In this document: in pieces, positions 3,534 through 28,227 of the stretch
Numbering within the stretch: the stretch's first letter is position 1
Layout: the number at the start of each line of letters is the position of its first letter
Virus record (IMG/VR): IMGVR_UViG_3300020187_000111
Location: 1-34,273 of that record
Origin: a virus
Reading direction: 5' to 3' (one strand)
Length of the DNA: 34,273 bases
Notes under the pieces: model-generated
Database searches by the model: none
The model's input: the letters and a program-made list of their open reading frames with translations, nothing else
Told to the model about the DNA's origin: nothing
Position numbers and translations under genes: made by a program

Positions 3534-4454
3534 TTAGATTCCCGCCTTCTCAAGCCAATGCTCCGCACTGGCGTGCATTTTGTGCTCGGTATCGTCACGT
3601 CGCAGGCGGTAGATTCCAGGGAATAGGAGGACGGTCTTGGCCCGGTTCGCGAATATGGCGTCCTGTAATGCCCGCGAGCGCGCCTCGGCAGTAGCTGGAT
3701 CGGCTTGGCCCGCAATGATTTCGTTGATTAGCTTTTCGGCCTCCGCCAGAGCGCCTTCGTTGGCCCTAATCGCGTCGGTCTGTCGGAAGGCTTCCCTAAC
3801 CGTCCAAGTGATGAATGGTGCCGTTGGCACCCACGCGCCGAGGATGTAGTCAGAGAATTCGACCCTGCGCCACAGGCCGGTGACAACCAGCGCGATGACG
3901 ACAATAGTTACGACAGCCCAGAGTATGTTACGATAGATCGTTCGTAGGTCCGCATCGTATGAGACGTTGGTGCGCTGGCATACGGCCCGAGCGAGCGGCA
4001 GTGGCGCCCCGTCAACCTTGGGCGAATACCAGTCCGCGATCGGCTGCGGACCGCGCAGGTTGTCAAACCCGCGCACCGCTCGATTCGTGTCCTCCGGTGA
4101 GGGCCGCTTACCTGCGGCGAGCGCGTTCCAATTGAGGCGAAACAGCATTGTGTCGAAAAGTTCGCTCGCGCGGGCGGCGGATTTGAGCGCCTCGCGGTAG
4201 ACTCGGTCGAGGAACGCTGTGTCGGCGATCCCAAAGCAAACGGCGATAAACGAAATCAGGGGGCGGCTGTGTGGCTGGTATTGACCGAGCGTGACGCTCA
4301 GCATTGGCGCGACAAGGACCAAGATTAGCTGCGCCATCTGCCACCGGGCCGCGACCGCCCAGCGCCATTGACGCGCCTTTAGCAGCCGTAGGACAGCCGA
4401 TTGGTTCTGGCGGATGCCGATGCCTGAGCGATCAGTGTCCGCATTCTTACTCAT
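3534..4454 (-). CDS. CBASS effector, S-4TM family putative pore-forming protein
   Basis: The 306-residue product has four hydrophobic segments, in two pairs: about residues 39-57 and 64-82, then 176-194 and 203-219. A cytosolic middle (about 83-170) and a charged C-terminal tail complete it. This layout, and phrases such as RVYREALKSAARASELFDTMLF and the SYDADLR region before the second pair, match the S-4TM effector family. Members are found next to CD-NTases, where a cyclic nucleotide is thought to trigger membrane disruption and abortive death. The start is 10 bases after the stop of the CD-NTase gene, so the two form one transcript. No Cap2/Cap3 genes follow, which fits a type I CBASS. 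Family assignment is by pattern recognition; pore formation is known or proposed for the family, not shown here. Confidence 0.8.
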   Translation of the reverse strand: MSKNADTDRSGIGIRQNQSAVLRLLKARQWRWAVAARWQMAQLILVLVAPMLSVTLGQYQPHSRPLISFIAVCFGIADTAFLDRVYREALKSAARASELFDTMLFRLNWNALAAGKRPSPEDTNRAVRGFDNLRGPQPIADWYSPKVDGAPLPLARAVCQRTNVSYDADLRTIYRNILWAVVTIVVIALVVTGLWRRVEFSDYILGAWVPTAPFITWTVREAFRQTDAIRANEGALAEAEKLINEIIAGQADPATAEARSRALQDAIFANRAKTVLLFPGIYRLRRDDTEHKMHASAEHWLEKAGI

Positions 4455-4464
4455 CGTTCGGGCC

Positions 4465-5940
4465 TCATGCGATCACGACGTGGAAGGGCGGGCTCTGGCC
4501 AACCAGGCTGCGGTCGCTCTCCCGGATCACGAAGGCTTCCGCCAAGTGAACGCCGCGATATTCGAGCGGCTCCCACCGCCGCGTTCCTTCCTGCGGGGTC
4601 TCGAAACCGCCCCGTCCCTTACCGAGCGCCATTGCCACCGCCCCCGTGTTCGTGATTCTGTAACGGACGGAGTGTCCAGTCGGCAGCTCCTGGCCTTCAT
4701 TCACGTTGACGTCGAACCACAGACCGCCATTGCCGGGCACCTGCTCGAAGTCCTCGATCCGCTCACCCTCCGGCGAATGCTGGCTTGGCCGCCATATCGC
4801 GACGATTTGCACGCGACCGGAGACGATGTCCGCGCGCGGCCAGATCGGCTGTCGCATGTGCCTTGGCCGATCCAAGCTCGGCTTCCACAGCCAGCGTCCG
4901 ACACGGGATATTATGTCAACAATTTCACTGTCGTGATGGGCGTCTGATCGGATCACTCCAGCCAGAATTTCTGTAGGATCGCCGAGTTCGTCCTCGTCCT
5001 CGTCCTGACTCTCGGTTAGCGAGTAGCTGAGGATGGTCGCATCCTTTGCGAACCTATCGCCAAACACCTCGCGCCAAGCGAGGATGCTCGCGAACTTGCC
5101 CGTGGTTTCGTAGGCCACGTCGATGTTGGCGCGCAACTCGCCTACCGCCTTGCACAGATCGCCATACGCCTTGTCCGTCATGCTCGCGGCAAAGTCTTCG
5201 GACCTTAGCTCGGGATTGGGCACTTTCGGGCGATTGGGGTTGAGCCGTAACCAGTCATCCAGCCTACGCATGATTGTCCTGAGCGTGGTCGGTACGTCCT
5301 TGAAGTCGGGTGCGCCAGCGTCAGACCACTGGATGCGCTCGCCGATCATGGTCGTCAGGAGCACCGAGGGGCAGGCAAAGTCGCCGCGGACATCCCTGAG
5401 ATGTTTGATCAGCCTGGTCACCTTCCGAAACGAGTTAGCCCCCGAATACCCGTTCTTGGTGTTAAACCAGTTTGTGTATTTGACCGGCTCAGTACGCTCG
5501 AACTGGTCGATCGGACGGTTGCAGACTTCGAGTCGATCCGTAATTTGGCGGCCCCTAACGCAGGGGGCAATGTCGATCCGCCGGTCAGTCGCATAGACGA
5601 TCGTCACACAGTAATCCCAAACTTCGACCTTCTCCTTGTAAAGGCCGCTAGTCTTGAACGCCTCGCCAAGGTTATTGACGTAATCCGAGGCCGCCCATCC
5701 GTCGACTGGCTCGACGATTACGAGCAGGTCGGCGTCAAATTCCTTCCCGTCGACGGGCCGGATTATCGTGTTTTGCGCCCAGGATCCCTGTTCCACGAAC
5801 TTCCAAACGCGCGGTTGCCAGTCTGAGTCCCGGATGAAGTTCTTAATCGCCTCGACGCTGGCCTCGAGCGTATCGATGCGATGCTGATTCAGGTTGACAT
5901 TATTCGCGAGAAATTCGGAGAAATGTTTGATCAGTTTCAT
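4465..5940 (-). CDS. CBASS CD-NTase with C-terminal AGS-C sensor domain
   Basis: The start is placed at MKLIKHFSEFL (5940), behind an AAAGAGAA-type ribosome-binding site; the frame opens 34 codons earlier, but that extension looks unstructured. The 491-residue protein begins with a SMODS-type nucleotidyltransferase: GSW at 52-54, the metal-binding DAD at 69-71, and a third carboxylate at D123 in RRIDIAPCV. A helical region follows, with LIKHLRD and an SVLLTTMIGE stretch typical of CD-NTase second domains. The last ~125 residues (from about WPRADIV) form a beta-rich AGS-C domain, known from CD-NTases as a ligand-sensing C-terminus. All catalytic acidic residues are present, so it should be active on infection and make a cyclic oligonucleotide for the adjacent S-4TM effector. 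Which nucleotide it makes cannot be read from sequence. Confidence 0.88.
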   Translation of the reverse strand: MKLIKHFSEFLANNVNLNQHRIDTLEASVEAIKNFIRDSDWQPRVWKFVEQGSWAQNTIIRPVDGKEFDADLLVIVEPVDGWAASDYVNNLGEAFKTSGLYKEKVEVWDYCVTIVYATDRRIDIAPCVRGRQITDRLEVCNRPIDQFERTEPVKYTNWFNTKNGYSGANSFRKVTRLIKHLRDVRGDFACPSVLLTTMIGERIQWSDAGAPDFKDVPTTLRTIMRRLDDWLRLNPNRPKVPNPELRSEDFAASMTDKAYGDLCKAVGELRANIDVAYETTGKFASILAWREVFGDRFAKDATILSYSLTESQDEDEDELGDPTEILAGVIRSDAHHDSEIVDIISRVGRWLWKPSLDRPRHMRQPIWPRADIVSGRVQIVAIWRPSQHSPEGERIEDFEQVPGNGGLWFDVNVNEGQELPTGHSVRYRITNTGAVAMALGKGRGGFETPQEGTRRWEPLEYRGVHLAEAFVIRESDRSLVGQSPPFHVVIA

Positions 5941-6117
5941 CCGCGGTTCTCTTTCATTGGGCGGTGCGTCCAAGGATGAGCTGACTGTAATCACCGTTGT
6001 AGAAAATTGGATGTAACTGCTTCGTTTCTCGCACGCCATCAAAGATTTGTTGGTACGTGCGCGCCGATCAAATGGTCCGGGTTAGGCAATGGCTGGTGGC
6101 CGCGGCGATAGCTTCTG

Positions 6118-6611: not shown

Positions 6612-7187
6612 ATGAACCGCATCGCATATTATCGTGTCAGCACCGGCGATCAGTCAATCGACACACAGCGGCATGCGTTAGGCGAAGGTTTCGATCGCGA
6701 GTTTAGCGATGAGGGCGTGAGCGGTGGCACGATGGCCGCTGATCGACCGGGGTTCGGGGCATTGCTTTCCTATGTGCGTGAGGGCGATACGCTTTATGTC
6801 TATGCGCTTGACCGCTTGGGGCGTGACGCCCTCGACGTGCAAACTACTGTGCGGCGGTTACTCGATGAAGGTGTGACCCTCGACGTGCGCGGGCTTGGTC
6901 CTATCGGTCGCGGGGTCGGTGAGCTTATCGTGGCAGTATTGGCACAGATCGCGGATATGGAGCGCCAGCGCATTCGTGAGCGCTGTGACGCTGGTCGGGA
7001 TGCAGCACGCGCAGCGATAGCGGCAACAGGCCGCACACACCGGGGCAAGGCAAGCATGGGGCGTCCAAAGGCCCATGATGCGGCGGTCGTCGCCGCATGG
7101 CGAGTAGAGAACAGAGCTACGGTTAGGCAGACCATGGCACGTTTCGATATTAGCAAGGCAACCGTTGCCAGATACTGCGCGAAGTAG
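6612..7187 (+). CDS. Serine recombinase of the resolvase/invertase family
   Basis: The 191-residue protein has the full small-serine-recombinase layout. The N-terminal catalytic domain starts MNRIAYYRVSTGDQS with the nucleophile at S10 in YRVS, followed by DRPGFGALL and the ALDRLGRDALD segment. The long E helix (ADMERQRIRERCDAGRDAARAA) joins it to a C-terminal DNA-binding HTH (about 165-191, TVRQTMARFDISKATVARYC). A GGAGG site sits at the right distance. Length is normal for Tn3-type resolvases or site-specific invertases. No transposase is nearby, so it is either a stand-alone resolvase or a survivor of a lost transposon. Together with the dead copy at about 3 kb it brackets the CBASS genes. 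Confidence 0.9.
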   Translation: MNRIAYYRVSTGDQSIDTQRHALGEGFDREFSDEGVSGGTMAADRPGFGALLSYVREGDTLYVYALDRLGRDALDVQTTVRRLLDEGVTLDVRGLGPIGRGVGELIVAVLAQIADMERQRIRERCDAGRDAARAAIAATGRTHRGKASMGRPKAHDAAVVAAWRVENRATVRQTMARFDISKATVARYCAK

Positions 7188-7444: not shown

Positions 7445-10294
7445 TCATTTGGCTCCTTGAAGCCTTTGCGCCCGTTTACGGGGCGTCGACGCCAGCGCAA
7501 GCAGAGCTGCCTTGTCCCGTTCATAAAGAGCAAAAAGATGCTCTACGCGGTCTCGGTCGCCCTCAAACACCTTGGCTCGGTACAGCTTATCTACGTACAA
7601 ATCTATCTTCGCGTGCGCTTTAGATAGTTCCAATGGCATCGCGACTGGGTCGTATAATTCCGAAAGCGATTGGTCCGAAAATTTTTGTCTTAAGGAGATT
7701 ACCGCCTCAGCTAATTCAGCGAGCTTTTTCTTGTTCCGTAGCACTAATGAAGGCCACGGAAATGGATTATAGTTTATACCGCTTGAATACTGTAACCGGC
7801 TTTCGAGCCGTCCTCCAACATATCGCGTCCAAGCCATATGCATTGCCGATGTGATAAGCGCAAAGTGATAGAGCTCTGCGCACTCTGTTACGAGAAGCTT
7901 GTTGCTCGGCACAGCGGGAGGCTTTAACCAACCGATCGGAATATAACGACGCTCTTCCGAGCTAACTTCTGGAACGACCAAAAACGACTTTGAAGGAATT
8001 ACAGTTACGTGAAACTTACGCGGCGTGTCAGCCAGCTTCAAGCTCATCTTACTAGCTTTTTTCAACTTCGCATTAGGCTTCGTCTTCGGCGGAATCTCGC
8101 CTTTGCGATAGCGTGTAACTGACTTTAACGCCTTCATGACCCCGGGAGCACTGCGGAGGAGCGAAGCGTCGGCAGACGCGAGAGTTAGTAGCCACCGCTC
8201 TGCGCCCCCGAGAAACTCCTCTGTGCCCATGTAAGGACGGATGAACTTTGCAATCTCTTTGGTCTCAGTGATCAGCGTCGATCGTTCGGCGGCGTTCAAA
8301 ACCAGGTAGCCCCCGTCTACGGGTTTTGTGCCAACCTGTAGCAGTGGCATCTCACCGCCTGGCGCCCTTGAACGGCTAACGACCAAGTGCCGATCTTGTA
8401 GCTTCGAGGAGTCAAACAAGTATGGAGACAGGCTTGCGTGGGTAGTCTCATCAGCCTCGGACCTGTAGGTAGAATACGAAAATAGCCTCTTCTGCTTCGG
8501 CTCCATTCCCCGCTTCATAAGGCCGACGATGACCACGTGGACGTGAGCCTTCCCTCGCGCGTCTGAACCCCACGCAAAAGTCCGGTGAGCAAAGCCGATT
8601 TCTAAGTTCCACTTGTGGAATAGAGCGGGCCATAGGGCCGCAACCTGCTCTCCCTGAGTAATCGAATTTGTCGCGACAAATGCCATCGTCGCCTTTGATT
8701 GCTGCATGTATTCCGCTGCTTTGAGGAACCACGCCGCCACAAAGTCTAGCCTAGATCCCGCAGCCCCTAGCCTTTTCATCAAATTGTTAGCTTGGCTTTG
8801 CTGATCAACTCCTCGCATGACGAACCCCACGAAAGGCGGATTGCCGATGATATGCGTACACAAGTCGAAGGGAATAACGTCACTCCACTCGCGATTGAGA
8901 GCGTCGCCTTTCTCTGGGCCACCATGGATATGCGCCGCGGCGCGCAACGGAATACGGGCAAAAACCTGACCAAACTCGCGGCTGAGCCGGTTGTTCATGA
9001 TGTGGTCCATCATCCACATCGCCGTTTGTGCAATTAACGAAGGAAACTCGTCAATTTCTAATCCATAGAACTGATCAACATCTACTTTTGAGAGAAGGTT
9101 TGCTTCTAGGTCGAGCTGGCCGTCAGGATACAGTGCATGTAAAACCTTGAGCTCTAGCAGCCTTAGCTCTCTATAAGCTATAATCAGGAAATTACCACAA
9201 CCGCATGCGGGGTCTAGAATGTTTATTTGCGCCAGTTTCTGCTGGAAGGCCAGAAGCAACGCACGCCGCCCTCTCTTGACTTGCATCAAATCAAAGAATT
9301 CATCCGTTAACTCGTCGAGAAAGAGCGGCTGGATCAATTTCATAATATTCTTTTCAGTAGTGTAATGCGCACCTTTTGCCCGCCGTTCTTTCGGGCTCAT
9401 CACGGACTGAAACAATGCGCCGAATATCGCGGGACTGATCTTTTCCCAAGAGAATTCACATGCCGCTATCAGCGTACTGCGCATTCCGGCGTCGAACGCT
9501 GGTATCGGGAGGGACTCTGCGAACAGCTGACCGTTGATATATGGAAAGCGTGCAAGATCTTCGTCGAGATTACGCTGCCGCGCGTCAATCGGCGTGTTAA
9601 GAACTTGGAAAAACTGCGACAGTAACGGCCCCAGATCTGCGCCGTCCTCGCGCGTGCGTTCACGCAAAAAGGTTTCGAACATCCCAAGTTCATCGAATAT
9701 GCCGGTATCATCAGCAAAAAGGCAGAATACGAGACGAACAAGCAGGCGTTCTAAGGGATGTCCGTGGTAACCTGAAACCTTCAAAACATCATGCAATTCA
9801 CCCATCAATTCGGCGGCAATTACATTTACGGGATCCTGATCCTTGAAAACCTTCTTTTCGACGCCGATAATGAAACCAAATACCTCAACATAGTCCGGGA
9901 GTTGGCTTAGACCGAAACTGTACTCTTCACGCGTATCAAGATCGATCAATTCAAACGAACGAAAATCGCAAAGCAATATGTATCGCGGTAACTCATCATC
10001 GCGTAAGCCAGGAAAGTACTCCAATGCTTGCTCACGAGCTTTTATCAAACTACGTCCGGCACTCTTCTGCTCAACGAGTAACTTGCCTTTCCAAAATAGA
10101 TCGATAAAGCCTTGCTTGTTACCAAGTTTTTTAACCGGTTCCTCGAAGGTTGCGACTTTGCGACGCTGGACACCAAAGATGGCGAAAAAGTCATTGTAGA
10201 AGGAGTGCGTCTCTGGCCGTTCGTTCTCAGCGATACTCCAACTACGTGCGAACTCCGCAGCGCGGACACGTATTTCATTCCAGCTGAGACGCAT
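7445..10294 (-). CDS. MmeI-like Type IIL restriction-modification enzyme (single chain)
   Basis: The 949-residue product matches the MmeI layout and length (about 920). The N-terminal endonuclease of PD-(D/E)XK type has D65 and the E75-Q-K77 pair in GFIDLFWKGKLLVEQKSAG. A helical spacer follows. The N6-adenine methyltransferase carries the SAM-binding DPACGCGNF at 361-369 and the catalytic NPPF at 485-488. The last third (after about 600) holds the target-recognition and C-terminal domains with the conserved ESRLQYSSGINYNPFPWP stretch. In this family one polypeptide both methylates one strand of its target and cuts about 20 bases away. All visible key residues are intact. The gene is clearly richer in A and T than its neighbours, a sign of horizontal transfer. 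Recognition specificity cannot be read by eye. Confidence 0.93.
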   Translation of the reverse strand: MRLSWNEIRVRAAEFARSWSIAENERPETHSFYNDFFAIFGVQRRKVATFEEPVKKLGNKQGFIDLFWKGKLLVEQKSAGRSLIKAREQALEYFPGLRDDELPRYILLCDFRSFELIDLDTREEYSFGLSQLPDYVEVFGFIIGVEKKVFKDQDPVNVIAAELMGELHDVLKVSGYHGHPLERLLVRLVFCLFADDTGIFDELGMFETFLRERTREDGADLGPLLSQFFQVLNTPIDARQRNLDEDLARFPYINGQLFAESLPIPAFDAGMRSTLIAACEFSWEKISPAIFGALFQSVMSPKERRAKGAHYTTEKNIMKLIQPLFLDELTDEFFDLMQVKRGRRALLLAFQQKLAQINILDPACGCGNFLIIAYRELRLLELKVLHALYPDGQLDLEANLLSKVDVDQFYGLEIDEFPSLIAQTAMWMMDHIMNNRLSREFGQVFARIPLRAAAHIHGGPEKGDALNREWSDVIPFDLCTHIIGNPPFVGFVMRGVDQQSQANNLMKRLGAAGSRLDFVAAWFLKAAEYMQQSKATMAFVATNSITQGEQVAALWPALFHKWNLEIGFAHRTFAWGSDARGKAHVHVVIVGLMKRGMEPKQKRLFSYSTYRSEADETTHASLSPYLFDSSKLQDRHLVVSRSRAPGGEMPLLQVGTKPVDGGYLVLNAAERSTLITETKEIAKFIRPYMGTEEFLGGAERWLLTLASADASLLRSAPGVMKALKSVTRYRKGEIPPKTKPNAKLKKASKMSLKLADTPRKFHVTVIPSKSFLVVPEVSSEERRYIPIGWLKPPAVPSNKLLVTECAELYHFALITSAMHMAWTRYVGGRLESRLQYSSGINYNPFPWPSLVLRNKKKLAELAEAVISLRQKFSDQSLSELYDPVAMPLELSKAHAKIDLYVDKLYRAKVFEGDRDRVEHLFALYERDKAALLALASTPRKRAQRLQGAK

Positions 10295-10631
10295 TCTCGC
10301 GGTACCTCTCTAAGTAGCGATTCGGCGCCAAGTTAGCATCCTCGGCTATCCGATTAACACAGCTCTATAAAATGGGTCGGTTGATCGGCGTAGACCGCTG
10401 CTGCTTTTTCGAGCGGTCTCTGATCGTGCAGCATTCTCCGCTCGCTGGCACGTGTGTCTCGGTTGGGGCGGGCTGATATGCCTAAACGATGAACAGCTCG
10501 CACGAATCGGCGGCACCGACGGCATGCACCACATCGCCGACAAACGCGCAGACCGACGCAGTATATTGAAATGTATATTTCAGACTGCCTTCAAGCAGCT
10601 AAGCCACCGCAATTACAGCACTTTTAATAAG
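10295..10631. other. Intergenic stretch upstream of the MmeI-like gene; no supported gene
   Basis: This 337-base stretch contains the promoter region of the MmeI-like gene and reaches the att repeat. The open frames in it have no ribosome-binding site or recognisable product. One plus-strand stretch (about 10475-10570) faintly recalls the N-terminus of IS5-type transposases, but the match is too poor to call. Confidence 0.6.
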
Positions 10632-10680
<49 letters not shown>

Positions 10681-12300
10681 TCATTCCAATGGCCCGTTGT
10701 GCTTAGTATTTGTGCGCTTTTTCGGTGAATCGGTCAACCGTTGTCCGGTACTATTCCGTGATTCCGTTGCAACCATGATCGAGCGCAAATCCTCCATCCC
10801 GACGTGCGCGTAACGGCTGGTGGTCCGAATATCGGTATGACCCAGGAGCTTGCCCGCGGCCTTGAGATTGCCGGTCGTGCGGATGATCCGGGTTGCGCTG
10901 GTGTGGCGCAGATCGTGGAACCGGAAATCGCTGACACCGGCATCGGCGAGCGCCTTATACCATTTGCGCGCCCATCCGCCCTTGGTGAACGGATACCGGG
11001 CACCCTTGAGACGGCGGGGTCGATCCTTGCGCGACGGGGCAGGGCGCTCGCAGACATAGGTGAACACGAACGGGCACCCGTCGACACGCGGTTGCTCGAG
11101 GAGCAGCTGCACCATCGCCGGTGACAGCGGGAAGCTGTGCAGGTTGCCGCCCTTGTTGACGATCGTCGCCTCGCCAGCACCCCAGTTGATCCGATCCCAT
11201 TCCAATCCGATCACAGCAGACTTGCGTTGCCCGCTCAGGATCGCAAACTCGACGATCGCGCGCAGGCTATCGGGCAGGGCCTCGAACAGCGCTTTTTCCT
11301 CGTCCGCCTTGAGCGCGCGGACGCGCTCTGCCGGTTCATCCAGCTTCAGCTTTCCCCATTGAATCGTGCTGACGGCATGCGTGTCGGCAACATGCCGCCA
11401 GACCCTGCGCGCCAGCTGCCACTCCCGGTTTATGCTGGCATGGGACACGCCTTCGCCGCGGCGCTTCGCAATGAAGGCGCGCCAGTCGGTCAACGTGATC
11501 GCGCTCAGCATGACGTTCTCGCCGATGATCCGGCAAAGGTTGGTAAGCTGATATTCAGTCGTGTAACCCGATGCCTCGTGCTGCCCCTTGTCGTTCCAAT
11601 AGGCCGCGCAGGCGTTGCCGAGCGTGACGCCGGGAAGGGTGCTGCTGCCAAGGGCTATCTCGCGGCGGAGGTTGTCGATGAAGGCTTGCGCATCGCGCTT
11701 CGTCTTGCATCCCGTTGAGCCATGAAACCGCTGTTTTTTGACCTGGAAATCGTACTGGAAGTACGGCGAGCGCGGGTCCGCCGGGACGTGATCGAACATC
11801 GCACGGCACCAGGTGCCATCGATCTCCGCCAGCGCGGCGAGTTCCGAGCGATCCGGATCGATTTCGATCCCGAACTCGGCGAGCCGGGCGCGGGCTATCT
11901 TGGCCATCGCCTCGACCTGGGCGACCTCGTCATCCTTGATCGGGGTTAGCCCGCGGTCGCGCGCATCGGCGATGAAGGCTTTTGCCGCGGACGTGCTGGC
12001 CGCGCCATTGGTCGCCAGCAGATCGGTCGGGATAGCGACATAATCGTCACCGCATCCGAGCACTGCCCGGTGCGCCGCGCGCCCGATATCGAAGGTCTTG
12101 CGGTTCAGCGATTCATAGTCGGGGTTCAGGCGGGGGCTCGCATGCCATGCATGGCGTGGCGATTTCGCCGTGATCAGCTTGGCGAGCGTAGCCGACAGGC
12201 TCGGCAGCGGTGCCGGGTCGCTGTGATATACGGCGCTCGGCAGCCGATGGACACCGGGACCGAGGTCGGCCTGCGCGATGTTGAAAGCGGGCGCATTCAT
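10681..12300 (-). CDS. Tyrosine integrase fused behind a truncated RecE-type nuclease
   Basis: The 539-residue frame has two unrelated parts. Residues 1 to about 178 are the N-terminal region of a phage RecE/YqaJ-like exonuclease: PSLSATLAKLI, DIGRAAHRAVLG and the metal-site start E159-x-D161-G...R166-x-M-x-D170. The D-x-K strand that should follow is missing. From about residue 180 (YFQYDFQVKKQRFHGSTG) it continues as an ordinary phage integrase, with AP2-like and SAM-like DNA-binding regions and the catalytic set R359, H462, R465, H488 and Y497. An integrase normally begins at about this QYDF strand, so a deletion has joined the two genes in frame. The nuclease part is expected to be dead; the recombinase part looks complete and would recombine the adjacent att site. 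Confidence 0.85.
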   Translation of the reverse strand: MNAPAFNIAQADLGPGVHRLPSAVYHSDPAPLPSLSATLAKLITAKSPRHAWHASPRLNPDYESLNRKTFDIGRAAHRAVLGCGDDYVAIPTDLLATNGAASTSAAKAFIADARDRGLTPIKDDEVAQVEAMAKIARARLAEFGIEIDPDRSELAALAEIDGTWCRAMFDHVPADPRSPYFQYDFQVKKQRFHGSTGCKTKRDAQAFIDNLRREIALGSSTLPGVTLGNACAAYWNDKGQHEASGYTTEYQLTNLCRIIGENVMLSAITLTDWRAFIAKRRGEGVSHASINREWQLARRVWRHVADTHAVSTIQWGKLKLDEPAERVRALKADEEKALFEALPDSLRAIVEFAILSGQRKSAVIGLEWDRINWGAGEATIVNKGGNLHSFPLSPAMVQLLLEQPRVDGCPFVFTYVCERPAPSRKDRPRRLKGARYPFTKGGWARKWYKALADAGVSDFRFHDLRHTSATRIIRTTGNLKAAGKLLGHTDIRTTSRYAHVGMEDLRSIMVATESRNSTGQRLTDSPKKRTNTKHNGPLE

Positions 12301-12396: not shown

Positions 12397-13026
12397 GTGC
12401 CGATCCTCGACGACGCCCTGGCCGAGTTCGACCGGCTGTTCATTCTGCTGAGACCGAACCTGCGGCGTTGGGCGGTACAGGTCGAGACGTGGCAGCGCGG
12501 CAAATGGCGCGGCGCAGTGCTGTCGGCCACCAAGGTCGATCTCGATACCCTGATCGGGCCGGATGACGTAGCGCAGACGCTGGAGCAGGCGACCGAGTGG
12601 AATGCCAGCCTGGTGAAGGACGTATCGCAACAGGCGCGGCAACGGATCGCGACTGCGGCGTTCGATGGGCTGCGGAACCGGACGCCCGCGCGTGAGGTGG
12701 CGGCAACGATCCGGGAGGCGGTCGGCATGTCGCGCACCCGTTCGCTGCTGATCGCGTCGGATCAACTCAGCAAAACGACTGCGGCGCTTGCATCGGAGCG
12801 GCGTCGTCAGGCCGGGCTCGATGTCTGGGAATGGAAGCATTCCGGCAAACTGCATCCGCGGTCGTGGCACCGGCAGCGGGATGGGTTCTATTACAGCGAC
12901 AACCCGGGGCGCGTGGGTACAGTGATCGATGGCAAGACGGTGATGGCGGCCCCCGAAGCGGGTGATTTGCCGGGGAGGCTGCCTTATTGCGGATGTCGCG
13001 AGTTGAGCGTGATGGTGTTCGATTAG
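12397..13026 (+). CDS. Phage head morphogenesis protein, Mu gpF-like (possibly 5'-truncated)
   Basis: The 209-residue product ends in the Mu gpF-type minor head domain: SGKLHPRSWHRQRDGFYY with the spaced R/H residues, followed by LPGRLPYCGCRELSVMVF with the cysteine pair and basic end. The N-terminal half is helical (LDTLIGPDDVAQTLEQATEW). These proteins sit at the portal side of the procapsid. The only available start is a GTG at 12397, without a ribosome-binding site, directly at the joint with the fragment on the other strand. The gene may therefore have lost its own start and a few codons in a deletion. The portal and terminase genes normally found upstream are absent. Confidence 0.8.
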   Translation: MPILDDALAEFDRLFILLRPNLRRWAVQVETWQRGKWRGAVLSATKVDLDTLIGPDDVAQTLEQATEWNASLVKDVSQQARQRIATAAFDGLRNRTPAREVAATIREAVGMSRTRSLLIASDQLSKTTAALASERRRQAGLDVWEWKHSGKLHPRSWHRQRDGFYYSDNPGRVGTVIDGKTVMAAPEAGDLPGRLPYCGCRELSVMVFD

Positions 13027-13277: not shown

Positions 13278-14036
13278 ATGATCTTTGCGGACCATCTGAC
13301 CCTCGACGCACCGCGCCGCACCAGCGATGGCTACATGGCTGTCCGCGCCAAGGCCGCCCGCACCGGGACCTATCAATACGCAGGCAGCGAGGTCGATCCG
13401 ACCAATGCGCACGGTCTGCGCGACCAGGCGATCGTCAACGTGCTGCGCGATGCCGACCAGGTGTTCGACGCCAAGGCGGTTCGCAGCTTCATCGGCAAGC
13501 CCATCACCGACAACCATCCGACCCAGCCGGTCACCTCGACCAACTGGAAAGACCATGCCCGCGGCACGATCATGGGCGCGGTTCGCGATGGCGAATACGT
13601 CGCGTTCGATTTGCTGCTGACCGATGCGGCTGCGATCACCGCGGTCGATTCCGGGAAGCGCGAGCTGTCGAATGGCTATTCCTCGTCGCTCGAATTCGGC
13701 GATTTCACCGCACCCGACGGCACCAAGTGCGCCGCGCGCCAGACCGCCATCGTCGGCAACCATATCGCCATCGTCGACCGGGGTCGCGCCGGTCCCGACT
13801 GCGCCATTGCCGACGCCGCGATCTGTGATGGCCGTAGTTCAGAACACGTTCGGCGAGAACATCGCGCTCGGCTACCCCGGCATGGAAGCCGACGGCGAGC
13901 TTTCCAACATCATGAGCGTCGTGCTGGAAGGCGCGACCGCATGCGCTTTCGGGCGCCCGGTCTACAAGGGCAGCGCGGATCGCTGCGGGTCGCTGACCGT
14001 GTCGGCGAACCTGCGCGGCTTCTCGATCGCGCATAA
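13278..14036 (+). pseudogene. DUF2213 phage prohead protein, truncated and reading into the next gene
   Basis: Residues 1 to about 183 are a clear DUF2213 protein, the family that serves as prohead protease/scaffold in many siphoviruses. Visible are YQYAGSEV, IGKPITDNHPTQPVT, the serine-containing RELSNGYSSSLEF and the histidine motif NHIAIVDRGRAG. After CAIADAAICD the frame runs into the next gene out of frame and ends with an arginine-rich nonsense tail at 14036. Family members are usually much longer, so the C-terminal half, including any scaffold part, has been deleted precisely up to the next gene's ATG at 13828. The proteolytic domain might still fold, but the gene is best regarded as broken. 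Confidence 0.75.
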
Positions 14037-14277
14037 GGGCAATGTCGTCACCACCGCTCGCGCGGCTGACACCTATGCTCCCGGCGACACGATCCCGGTC
14101 AAGAACCGCGGCAAGATTTGGGTCGCATCGACGACGGCAGCCGCCAAGGATGACCCGGTCTACGTGACGAGCGCAGGGGCCGTGACCAACGTCAGCACGA
14201 GCAACACCGCAGCGACCGGCTGGGTATTCGACGACACCATCACGGCTGCGGGCAACGTCCGCATCGTCCGTCGCTAA
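13828..14277 (+). CDS. Phage structural protein, capsid decoration/cement type (149 aa)
   Basis: The product (MAVVQNTFGENIALGYPGM...) is a beta-rich protein with ACAFGRPVYKGSADR, APGDTIPVKNRGKIWV and a closing GNVRIVRR. This is the layout of the DUF2190-like or Gp24-like cement proteins located just before the major capsid gene in this kind of phage. The family call is by resemblance and position. It is followed 12 bases later by the capsid gene. The ATG abuts the truncated DUF2213 coding part and has no ribosome-binding site of its own, because the native upstream DNA is missing. The reading frame itself looks complete. Confidence 0.7.
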   Translation: MAVVQNTFGENIALGYPGMEADGELSNIMSVVLEGATACAFGRPVYKGSADRCGSLTVSANLRGFSIAHKGNVVTTARAADTYAPGDTIPVKNRGKIWVASTTAAAKDDPVYVTSAGAVTNVSTSNTAATGWVFDDTITAAGNVRIVRR

Positions 14278-14289: not shown

Positions 14290-14985
14290 ATGACCAAGCC
14301 CATCTTTTTCGACTCGGTACAAGCCGCAGTCGCCCATCTGATCGCTCAGGACGGGGCATCGCCCGCGTTCGTCGACGCGATCCGCTCCATCGACCTGAAC
14401 GACGCCCAGCAGGTCAACGCCTTCCTCATGCCGCAGCTGCTCACGGTCGAGCAGGGCGTCTACATGATCAAATATCCGATGGCGGATTACGCCGACTTCA
14501 TGCCGGTCGACACCGCTGGCACGATCTGGACGGCGGGTTCGGTCTTCTATTCGGGCGACATCGCCGGGAAGCCGGAATGGTTCGACGTGGCGGCGGACGA
14601 CATGCCCTACGCCGATATGTCGCGCACCCAGTTCCTGCAGGAAAACCACATGGCCGCGATCGGCTACAAGTGGAACCGCATGGATCTGGAGCGCGGTCAG
14701 CAGCTCGGCGTCAACGTCATCGCCGACAAGGCGAATGCCGCAACGACCTCCGCGGAACGGTTCATCCACAACATCGGGATGAAGGGCGATGGCCTCAAGT
14801 TCGCAACCGGTTTCGTGAACGACCCGCTCGCGACCACCGTGACGGCGACCGCGGCGATCACGCCGACGTCGGATGCCGAATCGGACATCGCCGTCATGAA
14901 CGCGGCGTTCACCTCGGTCGAGACCAACACCGGCGAGACCTATCGCGCCGACACGCTGGCAATACCGGGCACCGCTATCCCCTGA
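14290..14985 (+). pseudogene. Major capsid protein, DUF2184/encapsulin-like, C-terminally truncated
   Basis: The first ~226 residues have the DUF2184 major-capsid pattern: an N-terminal helix, LTVEQGVYMIKYPMADYADF, the FYSGDIAGKPEWFDVAADD loop and NWNRMD-type spine segments (YKWNRMDLERGQQLG). It follows a GGGGATAGC-like ribosome-binding site. After ETYRADTL the sequence stops matching a capsid and ends within seven codons (AIPGTAIP). A full family member would be about 100 residues longer, so the C-terminal axial domain is gone. The junction, near 14960, fuses the capsid gene to the leader of a tail gene. It is unlikely to assemble into capsids. Confidence 0.78.
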
Positions 14986-15029: not shown

Positions 15030-15707
15030 ATGAAGGTATTCCCCACCCGCCGCTTCTATTTCACCGGGGTGAGCCCCGATATCGAACGCCGAACCGTGTC
15101 TGGCGGAACGTCGATCAGTGGTGAAGAGGATCTGGTCGAGACGGACGGCGGGGGCCGGGTAGTAGTCGAGTTCACCGAGGCGTATCTGGATGCTCCGGAA
15201 GCCGCGACTGCATGGCGCGCAATCAGTGCGCAGTTTGGCAGCGGGACACGTCCGATCATCGTCCCTCTTGGCGATGCCAAGCACCAGATGATGGGCGACG
15301 TCACGACCCCTATCGGCGGGCTGCCGTGGTGGGAGGAATCCGATTTTACCGACAGCGAGCCGCATGCCACGTTGACAGCAACCGCGGCGCTTCGCGCGAC
15401 GACGATCAGCGTAGACGTGTCCGACCTCGCAAAGCCCGTCCGCCCCGGCATCTGGCTCTCGATCGACCACGCGACCTATCGGCATCGTGCCTATCCGGTT
15501 GCCGAGGTGCTGTCCGACGATGGCGCCACGGCGCTGATCAAGATTGGCATGCCGCTCCGTGAGGCAACTGCAAGCGGAACGCCAGCCGAGTTCTACGATC
15601 CGAAATGCACCATGCGCGTCGATGGCGGCATGGGATCGCCCGTCACGTTTGGATATGCCGAGGGCTCCGTCCGGTTCGTCGAGTATTTCGGGGATATACC
15701 GGCATGA
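15030..15707 (+). CDS. Phage tail protein (225 aa)
   Basis: The 225-residue product (MKVFPTRRFYFTGVSPDIERR...) is beta-rich, with an early EEDLVETDGGGRVVVEF region and a C-terminal CTMRVDGGMGSPVTFGYAEG, SVRFVEYF. Its position immediately before the fibre genes and its overall size suggest a distal-tail or baseplate component. I do not recognise a named Pfam family with confidence. It is the first gene right of the capsid deletion junction and overlaps the next gene by four bases (ATGA), so it belongs to one operon with the fibre genes. Confidence 0.65.
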   Translation: MKVFPTRRFYFTGVSPDIERRTVSGGTSISGEEDLVETDGGGRVVVEFTEAYLDAPEAATAWRAISAQFGSGTRPIIVPLGDAKHQMMGDVTTPIGGLPWWEESDFTDSEPHATLTATAALRATTISVDVSDLAKPVRPGIWLSIDHATYRHRAYPVAEVLSDDGATALIKIGMPLREATASGTPAEFYDPKCTMRVDGGMGSPVTFGYAEGSVRFVEYFGDIPA

Positions 15708-16090
15708 CGCCCGCTCAGGTCGATCTGGTCGCCGAACGTGGCACTCCCTTCGTCGATGTGACGACGTTCGAGGGGTTCGATTACAGCGCCGCGACTTTCG
15801 TACTTGAGGTGCGCGATTATCTCGACAAATCGGGCGCGGCTCGGGTCGCACTCGGAAATGCGGCACCGACAGCTCAGGGAATTTCCGTGTCAGTCACTAC
15901 GACCAACGACATCCCGAGCAGCGATATCCAGATCAGGATTAATGAGACGACGATCGAGGGACTGCCCTTCACCACCCCCCGTGGCGGCGATCTCGTCTTG
16001 CAATATGCGCTCGACATCGACGGTGGCGGGCACGGCAAGGTGCGCCGGATGAAGGGCGCTTTTATCGTGAAGGCGAGCGCCAATGGCTGA
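15704..16090 (+). CDS. Phage tail adaptor-type protein (128 aa)
   Basis: This small beta-rich protein reads ...FVLEVRDYLDKSGAARV..., then IQIRINETTIEGLPF and GDLVLQYALDIDG, and ends FIVKASANG. The same pattern, including RIN(K/E)TT, a following FP/PF turn and a hydrophobic strand plus G-x-F end, forms residues 1-130 of the esterase fibre of the second prophage (30940-29000). The two are therefore homologous tail modules, here as a free protein and there fused to a fibre. Start and stop overlap both neighbours (ATGA at 15704, eight bases at 16083). It probably links the tail tip to the fibre, by inference from position. Confidence 0.65.
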   Translation: MTPAQVDLVAERGTPFVDVTTFEGFDYSAATFVLEVRDYLDKSGAARVALGNAAPTAQGISVSVTTTNDIPSSDIQIRINETTIEGLPFTTPRGGDLVLQYALDIDGGGHGKVRRMKGAFIVKASANG

Positions 16091-17896: not shown

Positions 17897-18381
17897 GGGC
17901 CGCTCCTGTCGCGCCGGGGCTGGTGGGCGCCCTGACGGCATGGCTCTGGGCTCCGACCGAAGGTGGGTTGCCGCTGATCGGGGTTGCCGTCCTGACCCTA
18001 CTATCGTGCGCGTTCGGCATGGCGTCGAGCCTTGCGCGGGTCGAGGACGCCAAGGCGTTCAAGCAGGCTCGCCGTCAATTGATCTGGAACGCGGGCGGGG
18101 TCTGGATCGCGTCATTGATGATCGCGCTGATGACGAAGTCCGACCTTCCCTGGTCGCTTGGCATCGGGCTCGGTGTCGGCATGGCAGGTACGCGGGTTCT
18201 GGAGGTGCTGGAGAACGGCGTCGTCGGACTGACGCGCCGCGTTGCTCCGGGCGCGGACGGGCTCGACGAGGTGCGCCGCGAGCTCAGCGACATTCGGAAA
18301 CAGACACAGGCAGCCATCAGCGAAGAGCGGGTGTCCAAGGATCGCAAAGCCAAGGGGGCGAATGATGACGGTACTCAATAG
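17893..18381 (+). CDS. Holin-like membrane protein with cytoplasmic helical tail (162 aa)
   Basis: Hydrophobic segments at about residues 8-45 and 70-105 are followed by a charged C-terminal helix (DEVRRELSDIRKQTQAAISEERVSKDRKAKG). Such a membrane half plus soluble coiled tail is common for phage holin-family proteins that sit directly before the endolysin. The start overlaps the previous stop (ATGA), and the 3' end overlaps the endolysin start by 20 bases, indicating tight translational coupling. Assignment as holin is by position and topology. Confidence 0.6.
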   Translation: MRAAPVAPGLVGALTAWLWAPTEGGLPLIGVAVLTLLSCAFGMASSLARVEDAKAFKQARRQLIWNAGGVWIASLMIALMTKSDLPWSLGIGLGVGMAGTRVLEVLENGVVGLTRRVAPGADGLDEVRRELSDIRKQTQAAISEERVSKDRKAKGANDDGTQ

Positions 18382-18973
18382 GGCCGCGTTCTTTGCGACC
18401 GTGCGCATGCGGCTGGGATCGCTCAACCAATCGCAGGTCGAGGGCTTCGGCGTTCTGCTCGATGCGATCGACGGCGCACCGTTGGCGCATCAGGCATACA
18501 TGCTGGCGACCGCTTGGCATGAAACCGCGGCGACGATGCATCCGATCAAGGAGATGGGCGGGCCGTCCTATTTCACGAAGATGTACGACGTGGCCGGGAA
18601 CCGCACCAAGCTGTGCATCGCGAACGGCAACACCTGCGCCGGTGATGGCCCCCGCTATTGCGGTCGCGGCTTCGTGCAGCTGACGTGGAAGAATAACTAC
18701 GCGCGGGCAGGGGCAGAACTCGGCATCGATCTAGTCGGCAATCCTGATCTGGCGATGGCGCCGGGACCGGCCGCGCGCATCATGCGGCAAGGCATGACCG
18801 AAGGATGGTTCAGCGGCAAAAAGCTGTCTGATTATCTGCCCAGCCAAGGGGTGGCTACGCATGACCAGTACGTCGCCGCGCGCCGGATCATAAATGGATC
18901 TGACCGCGCCGAACTGGTCGAGGATTATGCCCAGCATTTTGAGCGGGCTCTGCGCGATGGAGGTATCGCATGA
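18362..18973 (+). CDS. Endolysin, glycoside hydrolase family 19-like
   Basis: This 203-residue soluble protein has the chitinase-like GH19 fold used by phage lysins. It shows the catalytic glutamate in ATAWHETAATMHP, a cysteine pair in CIANGNTCAG, the RYCGRGFVQLTWKNNYARAG substrate-groove motif and NPDLAMAPGPAARIM. It cuts the glycan strands of peptidoglycan. There is no signal peptide, so release depends on a holin. The start is one of two adjacent ATGs inside the preceding gene. A second, only distantly similar GH19 lysin belongs to prophage 2 (26507-27103). Confidence 0.9.
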   Translation: MMTVLNRAAFFATVRMRLGSLNQSQVEGFGVLLDAIDGAPLAHQAYMLATAWHETAATMHPIKEMGGPSYFTKMYDVAGNRTKLCIANGNTCAGDGPRYCGRGFVQLTWKNNYARAGAELGIDLVGNPDLAMAPGPAARIMRQGMTEGWFSGKKLSDYLPSQGVATHDQYVAARRIINGSDRAELVEDYAQHFERALRDGGIA

Positions 18974-20423: not shown

Positions 20424-21080
20424 TTACGCCGCCTCGCTCGATTCGGGAAGATAGTCGGATGCCCGCTCCAGCCGCTTCCGGCACGGCGCGATCCAGCTAA
20501 GCCGTGCTGATGGGCGCGCCATCTTTCCCGGCCCGTTGGGGTGCCAAACGATCCAGCAATAGGCGGTCGCCGTCGATCCGGTCGCGGTAAGCTTGCCCTT
20601 ATGCATGACCACGCGCTCGGTGAACTGGAGGACGTGCGCAGGCTGGTGCATCGAGAAGAGCCGGTCGAACCGCCCGACGCCTTCCAGGAACGCGGCCCGG
20701 ACGATGATCGCTGCGCCGACCCGGCTCGTCCCGATCGCGCGCTCGATGAACTGTTCGGCGAGGCGGAACGGCGGGTTGGTGATCGTCCAGTCGACCGGCG
20801 TGGGCGGCAGGCCGAAGAGATAGTCGCTGACGGGAAACCCCGCACCATAGTCGTGGACGTCGCTCGCCTCGACCGATCCGAAGACTTCACGCAGCGGCGC
20901 GACCATGTGGCCTCGATTCGCGGCGGGCTCGCGGCACGTCATCCCCGGCCTGAGCAATTCTTCCGCGGTCAGGAATTCGCACAGGGCGCGGGTGGCCCAG
21001 GGAGGGGTGGGGAAGTCGTCCAGGCTGTCGTGTGCCTCGACCCGGCGCTGCATGACGGCGGTGCTGCGGTTTTGGGTCAT
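20424..21080 (-). CDS. Phage N6-adenine DNA methyltransferase
   Basis: This 218-residue single-domain protein has the phage Dam-like pattern: an N-terminal DDFPTPPWATRALCEFL, the SAM-binding region around EPAANRGHMVAPL (51-63), an acidic VEASDVHDYG strand end and the catalytic TNPPF (101-105), with aromatic strands after it. NPPF marks amino-methyltransferases acting on adenine or cytosine N4. It probably methylates element DNA against host restriction. The start at 21080 overlaps the DUF1643 stop by four bases. Confidence 0.82.
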   Translation of the reverse strand: MTQNRSTAVMQRRVEAHDSLDDFPTPPWATRALCEFLTAEELLRPGMTCREPAANRGHMVAPLREVFGSVEASDVHDYGAGFPVSDYLFGLPPTPVDWTITNPPFRLAEQFIERAIGTSRVGAAIIVRAAFLEGVGRFDRLFSMHQPAHVLQFTERVVMHKGKLTATGSTATAYCWIVWHPNGPGKMARPSARLSWIAPCRKRLERASDYLPESSEAA

Positions 21081-21646
21081 GCTGCCCTCCACAGGATCGG
21101 GTTCTGATCCGGCGCGATGCGATGCTTGCCGCGCGCCATCGGGTGCTTCGGCGCGCCGTCCTTCGTGGTGCCCCAGCACCATAGGTCAGGATAGGGCGCG
21201 ACCCCGGTCTGGATGCCCTCGGCCAGCTGCTCAATCCACATGTCGTCCCATGCGATCGCGCCCCAGCATACGAACACCTGATCGGCGCGCTTCGCCATAT
21301 CGATCACGGCGTCATAATTGTGCTGCATCTGGTCGCGGTCGTGCCATTCCCCCGCCCAGCCAGCTTCGGCAATGCGGCGGCACTCAGCCGGGCTGGACGT
21401 GCAGAACGGGTAGAGGTTCGCAGCATCGTATCCGCCGAATCCGAACCGATGAAACCACGCGTTCCACCAGCGTGACGTTGGGTCGTCCTTCATCGCATCG
21501 GCGTCGCTCGGGTTGCAGCCGATCACCAGTGCTCGGGGGCCTGGTCCCCAGTCGAGCGTTAGACGGCGACGGACGCCGGGCGTGGGGAAGTGCGCTGATC
21601 GCCGCATGATGGGCTCGCCGAATAGGTCCGTGCCTAGGTCGTTCAT
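21077..21646 (-). CDS. DUF1643 domain protein (189 aa)
   Basis: The DUF1643 signature is plain: LVIGCNPSDADAMKDDPTSR, then WFHRFGFGGYDAANLYPFCT and a C-terminal half with FVCWGAIAW and CWGTTKDGAPKHP. Family members are phage- and plasmid-associated and their activity is not established. The gene sits between the GIY-YIG and methyltransferase genes, with four-base overlaps at both ends, so the three are one operon and probably serve nucleic-acid handling. Confidence 0.85.
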   Translation of the reverse strand: MNDLGTDLFGEPIMRRSAHFPTPGVRRRLTLDWGPGPRALVIGCNPSDADAMKDDPTSRWWNAWFHRFGFGGYDAANLYPFCTSSPAECRRIAEAGWAGEWHDRDQMQHNYDAVIDMAKRADQVFVCWGAIAWDDMWIEQLAEGIQTGVAPYPDLWCWGTTKDGAPKHPMARGKHRIAPDQNPILWRAA

Positions 21647-22068
21647 GCCCTCGCTCCCGTAACGAAACTACGCCCGTCGGTCCTGACGCGCTCGGCACGA
21701 TCACCACAGCCGATGAGGTCTAAAACCTCTGCCGTATCGGCGACATTGCGCGCGATTAGGTGCTCGGCCCAAGCGCGCTCGGCAGCTCGGACCTCATTGT
21801 AAAGGGCGGCGCTCCCCCGGAACCATTCGCCACGGATACGGCTGCTCGCAAAGCGCACATGGAGCCGCTTCTCGTCGGCGATGCTGCCCGGATATGCGCC
21901 GAGCAACGTCAGCTCTTTAAAGTGCGAGGTTTGAAGATGCGAAAGCCGCGACCTCGGGTCGGTGGCATATCCGATTTTTATCGGCCCCCTGATCCCGCAT
22001 CGGACGAAATATACGAAGCCCGAGAACGCTTCGCGAACATCCTCCGGGACTATTCCGTGATTCGTCAT
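21643..22068 (-). CDS. GIY-YIG nuclease-fold protein (MUG113/T5orf172 type)
   Basis: This 141-residue protein carries a compact GIY-YIG-like core: GFVYFVRCG, then PIKIGYATDPRSRLSHLQTS with the arginine of the active site, and IADEKRLHVRFASSRIRGEW with the glutamate. This is the T5orf172 or MUG113 variant common in phages. A C-terminal helical part follows. The start at 22068 is preferred over the ATG five codons upstream because an AAGG-containing stretch precedes it. It is the first gene of the minus-strand operon, next to the right att repeat. Confidence 0.8.
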   Translation of the reverse strand: MTNHGIVPEDVREAFSGFVYFVRCGIRGPIKIGYATDPRSRLSHLQTSHFKELTLLGAYPGSIADEKRLHVRFASSRIRGEWFRGSAALYNEVRAAERAWAEHLIARNVADTAEVLDLIGCGDRAERVRTDGRSFVTGARA

Positions 22069-22161
22069 ACCGCTGCCTTCCATGCGTATCCGGTTCGTTC
22101 CGAATAGTGCCGAAGGCCAATGGTGACTGATGACCGCTCAAACCGCAGAAATGCGGGAGAC

Positions 22162-22241
<80 letters not shown>

Positions 22242-25632: not shown

Positions 25633-26184
25633 CTATCGCGTCAGCTTCGCCGCCCAGTCGACCGCGTTCTGCAGCCGGATTACCGCGGCGGTGCAGATAC
25701 CGACGTCGGCTGGCGCAACCATGACGGCCGTTCCACCGGGGCCGTCAGGCTTTCCGGCAGCGGAGGCAGCGCCGGGCAGGCCAGCGCTTGCGAGACGACC
25801 GCGATCGGCTGGACTGCCACCGGTTTCGACGCGCACGCTGTGAGCGCGAACATAGTCAGTGGCCAGCTGCTGCGCCGCAGCCATCTTCGTATGCAGATCA
25901 CGGTCGTACTCCTGTTTCAGATTGGCGAAGCGATCATCGGTCGCCCGTTTTGCGCTGATCGCTGCCGCCGTGGCGCGCTGGGTGACGGCAGCCACGTCGG
26001 CACGGGTCTGCTCGAGCGCCTGCGCGTTGCTCTTGGCGACCTGCACCGCGGTGTCGCGCTCGGTCGTCCTGGTCTGCAGCGAGGACCGGGTGGTCCAGTA
26101 TAGACCGAAGCACACGACCGCGGCGACGATCGGGTCCCAGAGGCGCAGCGCGCGCCACGCCGCCGCGAGCGTTATCCCTTCCAT
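25633..26184 (-). CDS. i-spanin (Rz-like) of prophage 2
   Basis: The start at 26184 gives MEGITLAAAWRALRLWDPIV and one membrane helix (IVAAVVCFGLYWTT). A long helical periplasmic part follows (ERDTAVQVAKSNAQALEQTR to AAAISAKRATDDRFANLKQEYDRDLH). The 183-residue length and anchor plus coiled-coil layout fit an i-spanin. The ATG overlaps the holin-like stop by one base. A complete o-spanin frame is buried within it. Confidence 0.8.
   Translation of the reverse strand: MEGITLAAAWRALRLWDPIVAAVVCFGLYWTTRSSLQTRTTERDTAVQVAKSNAQALEQTRADVAAVTQRATAAAISAKRATDDRFANLKQEYDRDLHTKMAAAQQLATDYVRAHSVRVETGGSPADRGRLASAGLPGAASAAGKPDGPGGTAVMVAPADVGICTAAVIRLQNAVDWAAKLTR
25680..25901 (-). CDS. o-spanin lipoprotein (Rz1-like) nested in Rz
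   Basis: A second minus-strand frame inside the Rz gene encodes MICIRRWLRRSSWPLTMFAL followed by TACASKPV. That is a lipoprotein signal with lipobox LTAC, then a proline-rich mature part (ACPALPPLPESLTAPVERP). At 73 residues with many prolines it is a textbook Rz1. It is wholly contained in Rz, unlike the overlapping pair of the tRNA-Pro element. Confidence 0.82.
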   Translation of the reverse strand: MICIRRWLRRSSWPLTMFALTACASKPVAVQPIAVVSQALACPALPPLPESLTAPVERPSWLRQPTSVSAPPR

Positions 26185-26510
26185 CAGACGGTTTCTTTCA
26201 GCCGCACGGCGTCTTCGGGAACCGCTGGGTCCGACGCCAGCGCGAAGAAGCGGGTGTGCGTCAGCAGGTCGCGCAGCCCGGTCCAGCCTGCGACGAGCGC
26301 CAGCATGACAAGGCCGGTGATCAGGTCGATGGTCTGATCGTTGACCAGCGCCGCGGGCAGCACGTTGCGCAGGCCGAGCGCGCCCGCCAGCGCGGCGACG
26401 CCGACGCGCAGCTGGCCCTTCGCGATCTGCGCGAGCGGCGACTGTGGAACTTCGAGGTTGAGCGGCACGGGCGTCGTGGCGGGGTCGAGTATCGTCGGCT
26501 GATCGGTCAC
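26184..26510 (-). CDS. Holin-like phage protein (108 aa)
   Basis: After a polar leader (MTDQPTILDPATTPVPLN) there are two hydrophobic segments: LRVGVAALAGALGLRNVL and LITGLVMLALVAGWTGLRDL. The tail is short and charged. Size, two helices and position between the endolysin and Rz genes suit a small holin or the Pam3-gp28-like phage membrane proteins. It overlaps the endolysin stop by four bases. Confidence 0.65.
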   Translation of the reverse strand: MTDQPTILDPATTPVPLNLEVPQSPLAQIAKGQLRVGVAALAGALGLRNVLPAALVNDQTIDLITGLVMLALVAGWTGLRDLLTHTRFFALASDPAVPEDAVRLKETV

Positions 26511-27103
26511 AAGATGATCTCCTTTGCGGTGATGAGGCGCTGTGTCCGATCGGCGAGACCATTGGTCCCACCGTTGATGCGCCGCGTGATGTTGGTGATG
26601 TCGTCCTGATCGGCGAGGGCGTTGAGGCCGTGGTCGGACCAGTATTTCGCTGCGACCAACATCCCGATCGACGGCATCGCGACAATCTCGGGACTGCCTT
26701 CGAAATCGATGCCGAGAGCCTCGCCATAGGCTCGATAGTTCCGTCGACCCGTCAGCTGGATTGGGCCCCGGCCATGGAACCGCGCTCCATCGCCCGGTTG
26801 CGAGTTGCCGAGGTCGGCGCGGCCATCATAGCGCGCGAAATACGATGAGCCGCCCAGTTCCTGCATGTACCGGAAGCCGCCGCTTTCATGCCCGACCTGT
26901 GCCATGAAGTGCGCGAGGCGGAGCGGCGCGTCGAGAATGCCGTAAGCGGGTAGATGGACCGCGGCGCCGAGCGCCAGCGCGACGGCCGTCGAGGTGTCGG
27001 CACCCATGCGCTGGAAGAGCGCGCGCAGAGTGCCGCGACCGATCTCGCCGTCGGCGCCGACGCCCAAGGCGCGCTGCATGCGTTTCGCGTCGTCTGCGTT
27101 CAT
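26507..27103 (-). CDS. Endolysin, glycoside hydrolase family 19, with N-terminal binding segment
   Basis: The start at 27103 (MNADDAKRMQRALGVGADGE) opens with a short peptidoglycan-binding-like repeat (GADGEIGRGTLRALFQ). The GH19 catalytic region follows: HFMAQVGHESGGFRYMQELG with the catalytic glutamate, SSYFARYDGRADLGN, GARFHGRGPIQLTGRRNYRA and NITRRINGG. At 198 residues it is a typical phage muramidase/chitinase-fold lysin without signal peptide. It shares family but little direct identity with the lysin at 18362-18973. Confidence 0.9.
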   Translation of the reverse strand: MNADDAKRMQRALGVGADGEIGRGTLRALFQRMGADTSTAVALALGAAVHLPAYGILDAPLRLAHFMAQVGHESGGFRYMQELGGSSYFARYDGRADLGNSQPGDGARFHGRGPIQLTGRRNYRAYGEALGIDFEGSPEIVAMPSIGMLVAAKYWSDHGLNALADQDDITNITRRINGGTNGLADRTQRLITAKEIIL

Positions 27104-27537: not shown

Positions 27538-27719
27538 CGTCCATCCACCAAGTCGTCGAGAGGTTCGCGGCGAACGGGCGAGGACGCGCGCGCCTCGATC
27601 CGGGAAGCAACGCGGTCGAGACGCGCCATGGCGACGTCCATTGCGGTTTCGTCAGGCGTGGGCCTGATCATGGCGAAGATGGCGCGGGTCATGGCTGCGA
27701 GATCCCGGAGCGGTATCAT
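27534..27719 (-). CDS. Small phage protein (61 aa)
   Basis: The start at 27719 (MIPLRDLAAMTRAIFAMIRP) overlaps the upstream stop as ATGA, and its own stop overlaps the next gene, so it is an embedded operon member. The rest is helical and charged (DVAMARLDRVASRIEARASS). No domain is recognised. Longer forms of the frame upstream lack a credible start. Confidence 0.6.
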   Translation of the reverse strand: MIPLRDLAAMTRAIFAMIRPTPDETAMDVAMARLDRVASRIEARASSPVRREPLDDLVDGR

Positions 27720-28084: not shown

Positions 28085-28227
28085 GCGATCACCATGGCCC
28101 CGTTGATCGACGCACGCCGTTGGTCAAAACGGAAATCATTCGACCAACCTCGCGACCATCCGCGTCTGAACATCTTTCCCGATGCGGGCCACGTACCGGG
28201 CCTCACCCATCAGCCAACTGAGGCAGC

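Follow-up and report, generated by a model that had tools for sequence, protein, structure and literature searches.

The fused gene and its two parts

The window analyzed here, that is, the whole stretch of 34,273 nucleotides of the IMG/VR record IMGVR_UViG_3300020187_000111, contains an open reading frame (ORF) in which the N-terminal part of a nuclease is continuous with a nearly complete tyrosine integrase. The frame (12300-10681, minus strand) is open throughout, over 1617 nucleotides with no internal stop, and comparison with the PHROGs splits the encoded chain into two parts, one matching exonuclease VIII (phrog_412, residues 17-175) and the other matching integrases (phrog_1, residues 177-513). 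The features of this locus are:

10681..12300, minus strand: fused ORF, 539 amino acids, ATG start
11770..12300, minus strand: N-terminal part of a nuclease of the RecE/ExoVIII type (DUF3799), residues 1-177 (phrog_412; relatives L004 and L091-L096; alignment to 3h4r)
11765..11778, minus strand: predicted deletion joint, in a short block common to the nuclease and integrase genes of relatives
10684..11769, minus strand: tyrosine integrase, nearly complete, residues 178-539 (PF00589; phrog_1; 77% identical to L002)

The phrog_412 match spans positions 141-295 of the 440 positions of the profile, and the relatives L004 and L091-L096 are 60-80% identical to the N-terminal part, over residues 16-177 at most. 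In these relatives, the nuclease is encoded by a separate gene and runs on through a D-(F/Y)-K motif and approximately 110 further residues. The Pfam domain PF12684 (DUF3799) was matched by the three full-length nuclease relatives that were scanned (L093, L004 and L182) and was not reported, at an E-value of 0.01, for the fused protein. L004 is alignable to the exonuclease VIII chain of known structure (3h4r), including the D-V-K of the latter, which we take to be catalytic. Within the fused chain, H77 and D170 are retained, whereas the D-x-K strand and everything after it are lost, and the integrase sequence YDFQ stands where this strand and the following helices would be. D-x-K is present in all seven close nucleases (alignment A5) and, by a permissive pattern applied anywhere in the ORF, in 83 of 83 nuclease loci, a set in which L095 and L096 repeat records already included. 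The initial identification of residues 1 to about 178 as the start of a RecE-type nuclease devoid of the D-x-K strand agrees with the phrog_412 match and with the relatives, which continue to D-x-K. With this catalytic strand missing, the nuclease lobe is probably inactive and partly unfolded. When the deleted 3' part of the nuclease gene was sought in the window, the best match had an E-value of 0.035 and was judged not credible.

The integrase part matches PF00589 over residues 330-502 (E-value 1.3e-22; 80.8 bits against a Pfam cut-off of 27.1), and R359, K383, H462, R465, H488 and Y497, which we take to be the catalytic residues, are all present. Translation of the integrases L002, L003, L006, L013 and L014 begins, at a start of their own, 7-9 residues ahead of the conserved S-P-Y-(F/W)-Q-Y-D-F, and S-P-Y begins at residue 178 of the fused chain; therefore, little of the integrase half is missing, and the nuclease alone is cut in mid-domain. 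The preliminary description, which held that both parts are cut in this manner and that a complete integrase begins at about residue 180, is correct with regard to the nuclease but not to the integrase, which is nearly complete, as judged by PF00589 and phrog_1, and lacks the first 5-9 residues or so. This domain may retain the ability to bind the tRNA-Pro att site and to recombine it. An in-frame ATG at codon 168, with no clear ribosome site recognizable before it in the sequence, could provide an alternative start giving a near-native integrase.

Conserved sites were counted over residues 17-175 and 180-516 in alignment A4, in which the nucleases were cut to the N-terminal part and a few integrase residues before Y180 were placed far to the left, leaving the counts unaffected. 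Among the sites that are invariant in relatives, one of 75 is changed in the integrase part of the window, with the 11 other sequences ranging from 0/74 to 9/83, and one of 62 in the nuclease part, with the 7 others ranging from 1/62 to 13/74. Private changes at invariant sites are not raised, so that the fusion event may be recent; the lack of such an excess also fits maintained function.

Relatives with separate genes

Intact, separate nuclease and integrase genes, raised in the preliminary description as something to look for in relatives, were found with the whole chain as well as with its halves as queries. In a scan of viruses with the whole chain, three loci were recovered, each matching one half: L002 (integrase, 77%), L003 (integrase, 58%) and L004 (nuclease, 73%). 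Similarly, in a whole-record search, among the best matches per record (n=12), six integrases start at query residues 173-177 and six nucleases end at 183-186. Among the 97 loci compared, including those from scans with half-alignments, matches to both halves were detected only in L095, where the integrase match is distant (28%). A genome-contig scan with the integrase alignment as the query recovered six relatives; the same type of scan, run with the full chain, returned 129 pattern hits, none of them a relative.

The relative arrangement of the two genes recurs in several of these loci. The records L091, L092, L093, L094 and L096 each end with an ORF for a PF00589 integrase, which is encoded on the nuclease strand, 2.8-5.9 kb downstream. 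A wider nuclease scan produced 80 loci, 24 of which have an integrase match in the examined stretch, including 19 with the match on the nuclease strand and downstream of the nuclease, and 56 have none; these matches were obtained with a panel of 15 integrases, with L095, L096 and L098 left out, and some are short and weak. L182 and L184 display, on one strand and unfused, the order nuclease - AAA ATPase - HTH/xis-like gene - integrase, with a window-type integrase (31-34% identical) approximately 1.4 kb beyond the stop codon of the nuclease (56-59% identical). The proteins encoded between the two genes in L182 contain AAA_24 and HTH_17 domains, both above the Pfam cut-offs; this HTH_17 gene is shared by L184, as is the AAA-like frame, which in L184 was read from the translation. 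None of the relatives examined combines a close nuclease with a close integrase, and the direct unfused parent was not found among them.

The prophage remnant and its integration site

The fused ORF adjoins one of the two copies of a 52-nucleotide repeat (51/52 identical; 10629-10680 and 22162-22213) and is flanked on its other side by phage structural genes in the opposite orientation:

10629..10680, no strand assigned: att core copy on the integrase side, immediately after the stop codon of the fused ORF
between 12301 and 12405: predicted deletion joint before the minor capsid gene, roughly placed
12397..13026, plus strand: minor capsid (Mu F-like) gene without about 77 N-terminal codons (the CDS of the relative starts at 2144, the match at 2375)
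13278..14277, plus strand: head maturation protease (DUF2213), cut and joined to a cement protein gene
14290..14985, plus strand: major capsid protein, cut on the C-terminal side (phrog_264, profile positions 16-217 of 321)
15030..16090, plus strand: tail-region genes, now beside the capsid remnant (phrog_12948 on 15030-15704)
18242..18973, plus strand: endolysin (phrog_181)
22165..22241, minus strand: intact tRNA-Pro(TGG) at the other prophage end, overlapping the second repeat copy

From the positions of the att repeats, the element is approximately 11.5 kb long. Stand-alone tRNA-Pro integrases (L002, L003, L006 from Sphingobium bisphenolivorans, L013, and that of Sphingopyxis phage VSN-002) are 51-78% identical to the fused protein over the integrase half and, unlike it, have no nuclease extension. 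Three of these loci share the tRNA-Pro att core with the window, at or within 6 nucleotides of the integrase stop: 49 nucleotides of the core directly follow the stop in L002 (100%) and L003 (98%), and 48 nucleotides of it (94%) begin six nucleotides past the stop in L013.

The remnant was compared, using window frames of at least 60 codons, to its 45-kb relative, Synechococcus phage Yong-M3-232 (OM868076), a phage in which those capsid, tail, lysis and integrase genes that the window has retained occur in the same circular order; for instance, 15704-16069 matches positions 17928-18314 of the phage. Unlike the window, Yong-M3-232 has terminase, portal, repressor and replication genes, none of which had a match among these window frames. 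The annotated exonuclease of this phage is not reported as DUF3799 and is encoded on the opposite strand, at a distance of about 8 kb from the integrase. The truncation of the capsid and protease genes was confirmed by PHROGs, and the joint between 12301 and 12405 could be placed only roughly because the peptide read ahead of the fused ORF gave no credible relative. Judging from this comparison, the carrier is an old, multiply deleted phage remnant in a bacterial chromosome, with at least three further predicted deletion joints relative to Yong-M3-232. A phage satellite or a gene-transfer element was rejected as the best reading of the element, given the truncated major capsid and protease genes and the lack of a terminase or portal match among the frames compared. 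The remnant also encodes a DUF1643 protein (21077-21646, minus strand), adjoined by a T5orf172/MUG113 protein (21643-22083, minus strand).

Outside the prophage, next to its integrase end, there are a CBASS-type nucleotide cyclase adjoining a SMODS-associated 4TM effector (3534-6042, minus strand) and an MmeI-like type IIG restriction-modification protein (7445-10294, minus strand), which together look like a defence cluster; a protein with a serine resolvase N-terminal domain is encoded between the two defence systems (6612-7187, plus strand). Past the tRNA, a second phage-like region extends nearly to the end of the window (25633-34273, minus strand) and encodes a GH19-type protein, a tail fibre (phrog_5616) and a DUF6950 protein.

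Of the 9 records checked that have integrases of the window type, 8 (L002, L003, L005, L006, L013, L169, L182 and L184, but not L170) encode an HTH_17 domain above the Pfam cut-off immediately before the integrase start or across it. The gene overlaps the integrase start in another frame in L002, L003, L006, L013, L182 and L184; in L002 and L013, ORFs farther upstream have no HTH_17, and those overlapping the integrase start have it. Among the other integrase types, HTH_17 was below the cut-off in L092, only a weak HTH_23 was detected in L091, and the ORF tested in L094 had none. We infer from their position and domain that the HTH_17 genes act as excisionases. Searches of the window with eight xis-like proteins from relatives gave weak matches only. 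The first four queries produced three matches with E-values of 0.12-0.46, two of them outside the prophage and the third an out-of-frame tail overlapping the integrase gene; the best match of the other four (E-value 0.004, 18 residues, 21427-21374) was rejected because it sits in the DUF1643 ORF. HTH_17 was also absent from the 20 prophage ORFs scanned, a set that covers the small ORFs in part, and the best match to the AAA protein in the window, with an E-value of 0.92, was judged not credible. Because the xis-like gene was not found in the window, excision is probably impaired, that is, weak or absent. The effect of the fusion on excision control that was suggested initially is plausible; the loss of the xis-like HTH gene is a more direct ground than the nuclease lobe for expecting such impairment.

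Origin of the fusion

At the junction, the window reads GACCCGCGCTCGCC, compared to GATCCGCGCCTGCC in L004 and GACCCGCGCTCGCC in L003. The latter two, taken as proxies for the parental nuclease and integrase genes, respectively, share an imperfect 14-nucleotide block with 11 of 14 positions identical at the joint, a level reached by 31 of 20000 random in-frame joints. This shared block, measured on the proxies rather than on the true parents, suggests a short-homology deletion. The deletion fusion near position 11770 put forward in the preliminary description agrees with the separate halves in relatives, their fitting order and strand, the shared block and the other deletions around it.

Very probably, prophage decay left the ORF behind as a scar when a deletion joined the front half of a nuclease to an integrase, a fusion that has been seen once. 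Under this scenario, the ancestor would have been a phage of sphingomonads or their kin that integrated at tRNA-Pro and carried the gene order nuclease - AAA - HTH - integrase beside attP. After lysogeny, an illegitimate, short-homology deletion would have removed everything between the mid-part of the nuclease gene and about codons 5-9 of the integrase gene, the reading frame being kept by chance. The integrase domain would have been retained nearly whole and the xis-like partner lost, leaving excision weak or absent.

A genuine two-domain recombinase, with a nuclease-derived lobe co-opted to bind DNA or a partner and to regulate the integrase, would be compatible with a frame open over 1617 nucleotides and with the conserved residues retained in both halves; nevertheless, we consider it extremely unlikely, no second copy of the fusion having been found in the collections searched. 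A degenerate junction pattern, with a single match in the window, was present in 0 contigs of the viral collection, where near-identical records may be omitted and the record of the window itself was not returned either, and, with no mismatch allowed, in 0 of 397 genomes sampled from a larger family. When 295 genomes of one genus and 94 of another were compared to the whole chain, single halves were matched many times, and no credible match among those listed covers both halves (four candidates scored per genome in nearly all of the former set and up to fifteen in the latter). At least 80% of the chain in one place was found in none of the 257 matching phage records and none of the 353 matching plasmid records. 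The sole listed match that reaches back to residue 149 (L114, from the 295 genomes) has stops upstream, followed by a normal integrase start. Another candidate (L150, from the 94 genomes), initially aligned over residues 53-386 with five stops, aligned only over 177-500 when searched again, with no nuclease, and two long nuclease frames (L178 and L186) proved to be extended N-terminally and to end at the normal end of the nuclease. A literature search for such a nuclease-integrase fusion listed no related report, which does not prove its absence from print. The AlphaFold2 model of the fused chain, limited by a shallow alignment (19 rows), has a pTM of 0.44, with residues 1-62 and 154-179 mostly at pLDDT <50, the integrase part mostly at 70-93, a poorly modelled segment (490-498) containing the catalytic tyrosine, and disorder from 516 onwards. 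The location of the fused ORF within a multiply deleted remnant likewise argues against a recruited lobe. Accordingly, the new recombinase architecture contemplated in the preliminary description gained no support.

That the junction is present in a single record would also be consistent with an assembly or sequencing artefact joining two places, which we regard as quite improbable. The shared block apparently comprises at most 14 nucleotides, with mismatches, below the usual overlaps of assemblers, although the true parents might share more; furthermore, a simple deletion accounts for the gene order and strand, and the remnant contains further joints of the same kind. Very unlikely, too, is a working integrase whose dead nuclease lobe would alter its partners or directionality and so keep a small, domesticated tRNA-Pro element integrated without an excisionase.

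Formation of the ORF by prophage decay has a precedent. Gene 02770 of the Streptococcus pyogenes prophage phi427.1 is described as a chimera of sections of several phage genes that arose after gene loss in a degraded prophage, and the cryptic prophages of S. pyogenes are reported to have lost regulatory and replication modules (PMC8115907). The fusion in the window reveals no new mechanism. The phage and the genes involved are different: in that study, two integrases lost the 5' part (PMC8115907), whereas the integrase in the window is nearly whole. The window illustrates cleanly how chimeric genes arise in decaying prophages, and automated annotation may take such genes for new multidomain enzymes. 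An enrichment of integrases in short prophages has been reported, together with a discussion of a deletion-shielding idea (PMC7744054). The survival of the integrase and the att sites in the window, in which terminase, portal, repressor, replication and xis-like genes were looked for and not found, fits both.
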